NCBI RefSeq assembly: GCF_002270355.1
Contig: NZ_NJFZ01000009.1
Coordinates: 310,001-374,000 of the forward strand
DNA from: Flectobacillus sp. BAB-3569
Lineage (GTDB): Bacteria > Bacteroidota > Bacteroidia > Cytophagales > Spirosomataceae
Length of the DNA: 64,000 nt
Direction of reading: 5' to 3'
A program made the position numbers and the translations under genes. Position 1 is the stretch's first letter, and every line of letters begins with the position of its first letter. Under the pieces are notes generated by a model. That model was not told the DNA's origin. It saw only the letters and a program-made list of their open reading frames with translations, and did not search any database. This document shows positions 57,762 through 59,005 of this stretch, piece after piece.

Positions 57762-57996
57762 CTATTTTTTAAATGGATATTTGAGTAATCGGTAAGAGCA
57801 AAAGGAATTTTTCTTCTTTTTGTCATCAAAAAGAGGGAAATCGAAAAGAAAGTATTGCTTTGCTAAATTGAAATATTATTTGGAAAATCTATAAAAGAGG
57901 CAAATCATAAGAGGGTTTGTGAAAAGTAGATAGAACTAAAAAAGCTAAAATAACTCAACAGTAGCACTTTAGGAAGTACAAAAGGCTATAAAAACA

Positions 57997-58028
57997 AAAA
58001 AAGCAGACTCAGTAAGACTGCTTTTTTG
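57997..58028 (-). terminator. Hairpin downstream of the tRNA-like RNA
   Basis: AAAAAGCAG and CTGCTTTTT form a stem with an 11-base loop and A/T tracts on both sides. On the minus strand it is about 140 bases past the 3' end of the tRNA-like RNA and would give a primary transcript of about 350 bases. Confidence 0.6.
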
Positions 58029-58166
58029 AATTACACTTCATCAACAAACTAAAAACCAAATAAAACTACTTTATTATATTCGTAGTCAATCTGATAATCT
58101 GGGAATAAAGGTAATCAGGAAATTTTATTTTGCCAAATCGTATATCCCCAAAATTTCAGATAATTG

Positions 58167-58326
58167 CTGTAGGAGAAGGACTCGAACCTCCACGGCGTAG
58201 TTAGGTATAGTACAAAATCTGGTGGTCAACCCCAGTCTATCTTGCGATAGGCATTATACTAACTTTATCCCGTAATCACCACCCCCGAGACAGGAGGGCA
58301 CGTCTGCCAAATTTCATCACCCTACA
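58167..58326 (-). ncRNA. tRNA-like RNA with class II D-arm and a ~90-base structured insert
   Basis: Read on the minus strand, TGTAGGG at the 5' end pairs with TCCTACA at the 3' end (7 bp). Next come a class II D-arm (ATG-AAATTTGGCAGA-CGT) and a hairpin CCCTC-CTGTCTC-GGGGG in the anticodon place. At the 3' end is a T-arm GGAGG-TTCGAGT-CCTTC. Between the second hairpin and the T-arm lie about 90 bases rather than 4-20. There, CTATC-GCAA-GATAG is a GNRA-capped hairpin, GGTGGT can pair with ACCACC, and AGTTAGTATA with TATACCTAACT; the last two would cross, making a pseudoknot. The anticodon by position would be GTC with U37, which does not fit a class II tRNA. CCA is not encoded. I do not know a matching family. 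Confidence 0.7.
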
Positions 58327-58360
58327 TTGTGTGTGTCGTTGTTCTTTTAACTTGACAATG

Positions 58361-58392
58361 CAAAGTTAACAGTCGTTCAGATATTTTGCAAA
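58361..58392 (-). promoter_or_regulatory. Strong promoter of the tRNA-like RNA
   Basis: On the minus strand TTTG (58392-58389), 20 bases, then TAACTTTG (58368-58361). This is the full -33/-7 consensus, with the same -7 and following bases as the tRNA-Ala promoter at 52204. It points at the tRNA-like RNA with about 25-30 bases of leader. Confidence 0.75.
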
Positions 58393-58531
58393 TATTTTAT
58401 AAAAAATTATTAAAATTTATAGTGTTTTCAAAAATTTGCTATTTTTGTTAACGAATCGTTAAAAATGGCAATTCTTGAAGCCTTGTTTTTTGCGAAATTG
58501 TTAATAATAACTTTAGACTATATTAATACTT

Positions 58532-59005
58532 ATGGAAAAAGTACCAGGCATTGACCAAGTTGATTTAAAAATATTAGGGCTTTTGATGAGCGATGCTACT
58601 ATGCCCTATACCGAAATTGCCAAAAAAATCCATGTTTCCAGTGGTACAGTCCATGTAAGGATGGCCAAAATGGAAGAAATGGGAATTGTTAAAGGCTCCC
58701 AACTGATTGTAGACCATACTCGACTTGGATGGGATATATCTGCTTTTCTAGGTATTTATCTGGATAAAAGTTCGCTATATGCGGAGGTTGCAGACCAACT
58801 CATGCAAATCCCTGAAGTTGTAAGCATAAATTATACCACGGGCATTTATTCTATTTTTGCCAAAATTGTTTGTCGTGATACCGTTCATTTAAGAGAAGTA
58901 TTGCATGATAAAATTCAAAAAGTGGCAGGTATTCAGAGAACAGAAACATTTATATCGTTGGAAGAGTCGGTAAATCGCTCGGTTCCGTTTGCGAATCCTT
59001 CTTAA
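58532..59005 (+). CDS. Lrp/AsnC family transcriptional regulator
   Basis: A 157-residue regulator. The N-terminal HTH (DLKILGLLMSDATMPYTEIA, then KKIHVSSGTVHVRMAKMEEMG) is typical of Lrp, and the C-terminal RAM/ligand domain starts near residue 68. Amino-acid-responsive control is the family role. It reads away from the tRNA-like RNA; the gap of about 200 bases holds both promoters. Confidence 0.93.
   Translation: MEKVPGIDQVDLKILGLLMSDATMPYTEIAKKIHVSSGTVHVRMAKMEEMGIVKGSQLIVDHTRLGWDISAFLGIYLDKSSLYAEVADQLMQIPEVVSINYTTGIYSIFAKIVCRDTVHLREVLHDKIQKVAGIQRTETFISLEESVNRSVPFANPS

Follow-up and report, generated by a model that had tools for sequence, protein, structure and literature searches.

A widespread tRNA-Asp-like RNA of Bacteroidota, probably a dedicated carrier for asparagine synthesis

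The window, the whole stretch of 64,000 nucleotides from Flectobacillus sp. BAB-3569 (contig NZ_NJFZ01000009.1) that was analysed, encodes on its minus strand (58326-58166) a cloverleaf RNA of 161 nt whose variable arm holds a large structured domain. The RNA belongs to a widespread tRNA-like family, whose window copy has no match in Rfam 15, and this is established whatever its function. Its sequence features and genome context make it probable that it is a dedicated, non-decoding tRNA-Asp-like RNA serving as the carrier for tRNA-dependent asparagine synthesis. With somewhat less confidence, we propose a wider picture in which many Bacteroidota make free asparagine on this RNA gene in place of an asparagine synthetase, under the control of an AsnC-type regulator and separately from decoding, and in which large phages carry the gene to maintain host asparagine. 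The chemistry of tRNA-dependent asparagine synthesis is already known; what is new is an RNA of its own set aside for it.

An earlier note, made from the letters of the window, had described an unusual tRNA-like RNA at this place. That observation is confirmed: the exact ends are 58326 (U1) and 58166 (C74) on the minus strand, the acceptor, D-arm, T-arm and a 5-bp/7-nt arm at the anticodon place are all found, and the cloverleaf is backed by compensatory changes. The acceptor end had been drawn slightly wrongly, as the pairing is TGTAGGG/TCCTACA, followed by G73-C74. The parts of the locus are as follows.

58166..58326, minus strand: tRNA-like RNA gene, body U1-C74, 161 nt (alignment, covariance models, homologues)
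58320..58326, minus strand: acceptor stem, 5' strand TGTAGGG (U1 and G2 in 123/123 distinct host sequences)
58168..58174, minus strand: acceptor stem, 3' strand TCCTACA (C71 and A72 in 123/123 distinct host sequences)
58166..58167, minus strand: G73 (discriminator) and encoded C74 (123/123 distinct host sequences)
58300..58317, minus strand: D-arm ATG-AAATTTGGCAGA-CGT (covariation ATG/CAT, TTG/CAA, ACG/CGT)
58282..58298, minus strand: anticodon-like arm CCCTC-CUGUCUC-GGGGG, loop at 58293-58287
58277..58280, minus strand: V-stem, 5' strand GGTG (covariation GGTG/CACC, GATG/CATC, GAAG/CTTC)
58194..58197, minus strand: V-stem, 3' strand CGCC (compensatory changes)
58198..58276, minus strand: structured variable-arm domain (about 79 nt)
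58254..58261, minus strand: domain helix, 5' strand TAGTATAA (double changes in 5/8 pairs)
58208..58215, minus strand: domain helix, 3' strand TTGTACTA, the 8-bp partner of TAGTATAA
58237..58250, minus strand: hairpin CTATC-GCAA-GATAG (double changes in 4/5 pairs; loop and length vary)
58220..58234, minus strand: element TGGGG-UUGA-CC-A-CCA (near-invariant in the own family, absent from some other families)
58175..58191, minus strand: T-arm GGAGG-TTCGAGT-CCTTC
58361..58368, minus strand: promoter-like -7 box TAACTTTG
58392-58389, minus strand: TTTG of a -33 element
58029..58061, minus strand: conserved downstream element ATTTGGTTTTTAGTTTGTTGATGAAGTGTAATT, 33 nt (core in 81/81 own-family loci)
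57995..58027, minus strand: terminator-like hairpin and T run after ATTTGGTTTTTAGTTTGTTGATGAAGTGTAATT (by eye)
58532..59005, plus strand: divergent AsnC-type regulator gene, 157 aa

The cloverleaf is well supported by comparison. In the own-family alignment (37 sequences), 96.8% of cells are paired, double changes occur in 15 pairs against a shuffled mean of 8.9, and the covariation score is 0.238 against 0.122 after shuffling. In the core of 31 diverse sequences (30 distinct), 99.4% of cells are paired and double changes are found in 13 pairs against 5.9, in an alignment that was fitted to model R1 and is thereby biased in favour of the structure. Covariation in the own-family alignment extends to the V-stem, to the domain helix and to the GNRA hairpin of the earlier note, which has double changes in four of its five pairs. 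The anticodon-like stem hardly varies among relatives and so says little by itself, and the T-arm stem has a one-base bulge in many relatives of the own family. Folding energy of the single sequence is unremarkable (z -0.47), so that the demonstration of a real structure lies entirely in the comparative evidence. An alternative fold from RNAalifold agrees with most helices and omits the D-stem.

The pseudoknot suggested previously from two crossing helices is not supported by counts of pairing and double changes. GGTGGT/ACCACC pairs in 97.3% of cells with no double change and is broken in some relatives, and AGTTAGTATA/TATACCTAACT pairs in just 68.4% of cells. The bases concerned are better explained by the V-stem (GGTG/CGCC) and the 8-bp helix TAGTATAA/TTGTACTA, both of which carry compensatory changes. 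The length of the variable-arm domain differs strongly among homologues, and the domain is nearly gone in an intermediate 77-nt form (genome G232, L139/L386; 68 bits) that has the loop CUAUCUC, U1-A72 and G73; ARAGORN calls this form tRNA-Asp(AUC), unlike the window RNA. The 77-nt form suggests that the domain is dispensable.

Several signals flank the gene. The promoter-like TAACTTTG of the earlier note stands at 58368-58361, with identical letters upstream of tRNA-Ala, and boxes resembling it lie upstream of most own-family copies (by eye); by the Bacteroidota consensus it is promoter-like. The ATTTGGTTTTTAGTTTGTTGATGAAGTGTAATT element is near-identical among relatives; its core also occurs in L086, L087 and 21/119 named loci, and all 92 viral stretches lack it. 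The element may form the 3' portion of the transcript or be a second small RNA. The encoded C74 also ends all 45 host tRNAs listed from the window genome.

Standard tools pass over the RNA. Rfam 15 has no family at threshold at the window locus; cmscan to E = 10 over 58000-58500 gave four weak matches, none to a tRNA-like family, and bacterial Y RNA (YrlA) is absent among the Rfam matches to E = 10 at the locus. The tmRNA model (RF00023) has no match there, the tRNA model (RF00005) stays below its gathering threshold, and ARAGORN makes no call at the window locus or at 20 homologous loci; the cloverleaf helices do show compensatory changes. The check proposed in the earlier note (Rfam, homologues, covariation) left its claim unrefuted, with no Rfam match and with both homologues and compensatory changes present. 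No account of such an RNA was found in the openly licensed literature, which is weak evidence of novelty.

The family is common in its own taxonomic neighbourhood. In the own family, a DNA-similarity match (E <= 0.01) occurs in 204/222 genomes, usually just one per genome; some complete own-family genomes have no detectable copy, so the RNA is not essential everywhere. Across the order, the first covariance model (37 sequences) matches at E <= 0.01 in 359/390 genomes; 73 of these matches are weak (E > 1e-13; possibly ordinary tRNAs or short forms), and a hand cut leaves strong matches in 286/390. The RNA is multi-copy in many genomes, with tandem copies in distant families (four about 195 nt apart in L099, five in L100). 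R2, a second covariance model based on 31 diverse sequences, scores homologues at 72-135 bits over 108-196 nt, and its cross-matches to ordinary class II tRNAs stay at or below 62 bits and below 90 nt (two inspected have Leu anticodons). Because of these cross-matches, the raw R2 tallies (308/345 and 237/247) were discarded and places of at least 72 bits alone were counted; both R2 genome searches used Infernal's stricter filters. By hand count among the places listed, 48/332 genomes from other orders of the class hold the RNA, and in other classes of the phylum no R2 homologue was found among the matches listed, all of which are below 62 bits and 90 nt. Holders among the matches listed include Spirosoma, Dyadobacter, Emticicia, Algoriphagus, Cyclobacterium, Chitinophaga, Ferruginibacter and Saprospiraceae. 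Over 4 kb, a contig titled Cellulophaga sp. BC115SP (L205, NZ_JAAALB010000015.1) shares 90.7% identity with the window, and it has both the RNA and the downstream element; its Cellulophaga label may be wrong. A plasmid search with the RNA gave no match.

The loop and the acceptor stem give the RNA its identity. The key clue turned out to be the earlier note's comment that such a loop is out of place in a usual class II tRNA, as the loop is of aspartate type: the host tRNA-Asp loop is CUGUCAC and that of the RNA is CUGUCUC, with A37 changed. The bacterial aspartate set consists, in the account of PMC9976931, of G73, G34, U35, C36 and C38 together with G1-C72 and G2-C71. In 123 distinct host sequences U1, A72, G2, C71, G73 and C74 are invariant; in the 7-nt loops (n=122), G34 is found in 119, U35 and C36 in 122 each and C38 in 120. 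These sequences came from DNA or model searches, which preferentially pick up similar sequences and may make the positions look somewhat more invariant than they are. Departures at the determinants occur in the second copy of L094 and in L136, L402 and L403, and L401 could not be scored. The RNA thus has G34, U35, C36, C38 and G73 of an AspRS substrate and always has U1-A72 at the place of G1-C72. As described in PMC9976931 and PMC4206432, U1-A72 licenses amidation of Asp-tRNA-Asn by GatCAB, and G1-C72 of tRNA-Asp prevents it; the GatCAB signal is present in 123/123 sequences. At the U20a antideterminant, the RNA has CA after GG (class II numbering is uncertain here), and host tRNA-Asn and tRNA-Asp share GGTTAG in this region.

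Across these loops, the U33 and A37 that flank GUC in an elongator tRNA-Asp are not both kept: no loop has A at position 37 (U 113, G 6, C 3; n=122), and U33 is kept in 109/122 loops and lost in 13/122. From its letters, the RNA looks made to be ASPARTYLATED, yet not for decoding.

Genome context points to asparagine. The best NCBIfam match of the divergent neighbour is AsnC (NF008384; 155 bits, below the equivalog cut-off of 227), and its best PDB match is E. coli AsnC. By tblastn, an AsnC-type gene accompanies 190 of the 252 loci in which the RNA core is recognisable (own family 79/80, order 16/20, class 17/33, named 78/119), upstream and divergent in 190/190, with the match beginning 141-304 nt from the core. 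Since some loci repeat one place, distinct 100-nt contexts were also counted, giving 162/220 (own family 64/65, order 16/20, class 16/32, named 66/103). With at least 700 nt of flank the figure is 173/218, and 45 of the 62 loci that lack the neighbour have such a flank. In the named loci, all 78 AsnC-like matches lie less than 600 nt from the RNA core, and a small control found the neighbour at 0/11 ordinary tRNAs. A tblastn search of 92 viral and 204 host stretches found no gene for AspRS, GatB or AsnRS beside the RNA. In E. coli, AsnC is an activator of asnA, which encodes asparagine synthetase A, and asparagine abolishes this activation, as reported in PMC4482635 and PMC8707732.

GatB accompanies the RNA in a hand-chosen, non-random sample of 45 genomes, of which 25 have the RNA and 20 lack it. 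AsnRS is present in 45/45, and GlnRS is above cut-off in 29/45 (G678, which has a partial match, is counted as lacking it). Stand-alone GatB occurs in 25/25 genomes with the RNA and 12/20 without. The 16 genomes without GlnRS all have GatB and are uninformative, as they presumably need GatCAB for glutamine. Among genomes with GlnRS, stand-alone GatB is found in 20/20 with the RNA versus 1/9 without (Fisher 2e-6, kinship ignored), and these nine are not independent, the AspRS tree requiring three label changes, two of them forced by well-supported branches. The exception is G208 (99% complete), which has GatB, GlnRS and AsnRS, and in which an RNA copy was undetected. Among the remaining eight, GatB gave no match in five, and three have a GatB-AspRS fusion. 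Genomes with GlnRS and without the RNA therefore seem either to have lost GatCAB too or to use a protein-only Asp-to-Asn tRNA route, with G208 as the exception.

The fusions (L439, 754-4059; L440, 853-4170; L441, 817-4131; 1101-1105 aa) belong to three own-family genomes without the RNA, join GatB to a second, bacterial-type AspRS, and are encoded directly after a GatA-like gene (best match gatA, 428-436 bits, below the cut-off of 481). Each is possibly an asparagine transamidosome in one chain. No AsnC-type gene was found in the 12.5-14.5 kb around each of the three. At two compared positions the fused AspRSs have H and D. The ordinary AspRSs of RNA-bearing genomes (24 of 25) have K (18), L (4) or F (2) at the first and K at the second, and those of RNA-less genomes (n=18) have K (17) or A (1) and K (18). 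The position bearing H is presumably the site that separates discriminating from non-discriminating enzymes, H marking those that also charge tRNA-Asn; a signature of non-discriminating bacterial AspRS, H31/G81, was reportedly described by Bernard and colleagues in 2006. Because H is likewise missing from the 18 ordinary AspRSs of genomes without the RNA, the signature separates the fusions only.

AsnB-type proteins above the curated cut-off are found in 21/25 genomes with the RNA (the others are G198, G164, G103 and G152) and 15/20 without, so many genomes may have another source of asparagine. Many of the longer proteins (about 600-670 aa) may be paralogues. A compact AsnB frame (549-584 aa, above cut-off; the length limit is our own choice) occurs in the RNA-less genomes G228, G236, G595, G836 and G968 and in 0/25 with the RNA. 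G630 has two compact AsnB in one 1204-aa frame, and G342, which has the RNA, has an AsnB frame of 597 aa.

The RNA is also carried by phages. The exact core motif was found in 92 viral stretches, in many cases within tRNA arrays: at least five ordinary tRNAs are found in 30 of them and at least ten in 16, one has 25 tRNA calls, and six have a tmRNA call. R2 applied to 80 viral stretches gave 79 full-length copies (at least 79 bits) and one that is cut off. In the 50 copies printed of these 79 (hand-picked), acceptor pairs 3-7 change jointly (by eye) and UG...CAGC is fixed, with a TG start in 49/50 and a CAGC end in 50/50; the search pattern itself dictated their loop. For some IMG/VR contigs a host origin is possible, and the secure cases are the ones with large tRNA arrays. 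In a 636-kb phage record, a 12-kb stretch in which ARAGORN calls nine tRNAs also holds a full-length copy scoring 111 bits. Searched against annotated phage records, the copy of L341 gave one match (LR756504), and the window copy and the copies of L302, L290, L300 and L294 gave none. That phages with their own tRNAs and tmRNA bring the RNA argues that it supports translation, directly or via amino-acid supply.

Two further features of phage copies and arrays may be recorded. In L317, L272, L302, L312, L309 and similar phage copies, the D-loop has about 20 extra bases, hairpin-like by eye. Weak model matches of 122-149 nt lie in the phage tRNA arrays of L277 (7682-7830), L284 (4907-5050) and L344 (5064-5185, 5269-5412); the alignment opens a long insert in the anticodon loop, those of L277 and L284 have no ARAGORN call, and all are possibly intron-bearing phage tRNAs.

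These observations can be arranged into a pathway. The AsnC-type regulator, linked and divergent in most loci, would control the RNA gene, and the transcript would be trimmed in the manner of a tRNA and receive CCA. Because the RNA carries G34, U35, C36 and C38, G73 and G2-C71, the ordinary cellular AspRS is proposed to charge it with aspartate, and because U1-A72 replaces G1-C72 of tRNA-Asp, GatCAB is proposed to amidate this aspartate to asparagine on the RNA. The RNA would be barred from reading Asp codons because A37 is lost, U33 is relaxed and the variable arm is enlarged. Asparagine would then be released as the free amino acid and used by AsnRS, and phages that carry the RNA with tRNAs would presumably keep the asparagine supply up during infection. 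Against a carrier stand the absence from the RNA of G1-C72, which AspRS is reported to use in PMC9976931, and also G208, the AsnB-type proteins in genomes with the RNA, the 62/252 loci without an AsnC-type neighbour (the class set has it in only 17/33), the few host sequences that depart at the determinants, and the AspRS signature, which fails to set RNA-bearing genomes apart from RNA-less ones. If true, a noncoding RNA would be a dedicated metabolic carrier, and tRNA-dependent amino-acid synthesis would run apart from translation. It would also help to explain why some bacteria with both AsnRS and GlnRS retain GatCAB, a puzzle raised in PMC4206432.

Four other readings were weighed. The identity elements, the AsnC-type neighbour and the co-occurrence with GatB would also suit a tRNA mimic acting as sensor or scaffold, one that would bind AspRS, GatCAB or both without itself passing on asparagine, for example as a structural component of an asparagine transamidosome or by titrating AspRS as a decoy. 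This is unlikely, as the G73-C74 3' end is invariant as in a charging tRNA and phages hold the RNA among ordinary tRNAs; a pure AspRS decoy would moreover leave the fixed U1-A72 without reason. Slightly less probable again is that the charged RNA gives aspartate or asparagine to a non-ribosomal acceptor (a lipid, cell-wall peptide or protein N-terminus), as a non-decoding tRNA-Gly serves as donor in staphylococcal cell walls. The relaxed U33 and the lack of A37 would suit such a donor, but the one conserved neighbour found, in loci surveyed systematically for the AsnC-type gene, is this regulator; a transferase gene may lie nearby.

A true elongator tRNA-Asp with an odd variable arm, or one that inserts asparagine at Asp codons, perhaps for special codons or stress, is very improbable. 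GUC is retained in 119/122 scored loops and phage tRNA arrays carry the RNA; however, ordinary tRNA-Asp genes are present in the window genome and in phage array L302 itself, position 37 is never A, U33 is lost in 13/122 and U1-A72 replaces G1-C72. A tmRNA-like rescue RNA or decayed tmRNA, which tRNA-like ends and a structured insert might suggest, is the least likely of the four, as the anticodon-like arm is intact, the insert lies in the variable arm, no tag reading frame was seen in the RNA (by eye) and some viral stretches carry both RNAs. Canonical tmRNA is present in 19/19 genomes searched, the window genome having its own elsewhere, and a role for the RNA as substitute for a missing tmRNA was rejected on this ground. 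The interpretation in the earlier note is thus partly supported: a new tRNA-derived RNA was the right choice among its options, an intron-bearing tRNA is not supported, since the extra sequence lies in the variable arm and the anticodon arm is intact, and neither is a decayed tmRNA-like gene, given conservation far outside the family.

The proposed carrier for asparagine synthesis shares traits with several known systems. Like tmRNA (RF00023), it has tRNA-like ends and inserted structured RNA and is carried by some phages, but it keeps an anticodon-like arm and has its insertion in the variable arm. With class II tRNAs (Leu, Ser, Tyr) it shares a D-arm of Leu type and a V-stem, and it differs from them in loop, acceptor and the score and length of its homologues (72-135 bits, 108-196 nt). 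The locus resembles the E. coli asnC-asnA pair in that an AsnC-type gene is divergent from a (proposed) asparagine-synthesis gene, although here that gene is an RNA and not asparagine synthetase A, and the regulator scores below the AsnC equivalog cut-off. With bacterial tRNA-Asp it shares the loop CUGUC-N-C, G73 and G2-C71 (the set given in PMC9976931), whereas U1-A72, the constant lack of A37, the class II shape and the large variable-arm domain set it apart, and the window RNA is missed by ARAGORN and the Rfam tRNA model. A further parallel is the two-step route to asparagine studied in Bdellovibrio (PMC4206432), with a non-discriminating AspRS and GatCAB; there the misacylated RNA is tRNA-Asn itself, and what is made on it goes into translation. 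The RNA shares with this route the GatCAB signal U1-A72 and co-occurrence with GatB and AsnRS; unlike it, a separate RNA with an Asp loop would let the ordinary AspRS feed GatCAB, and its product should not decode.
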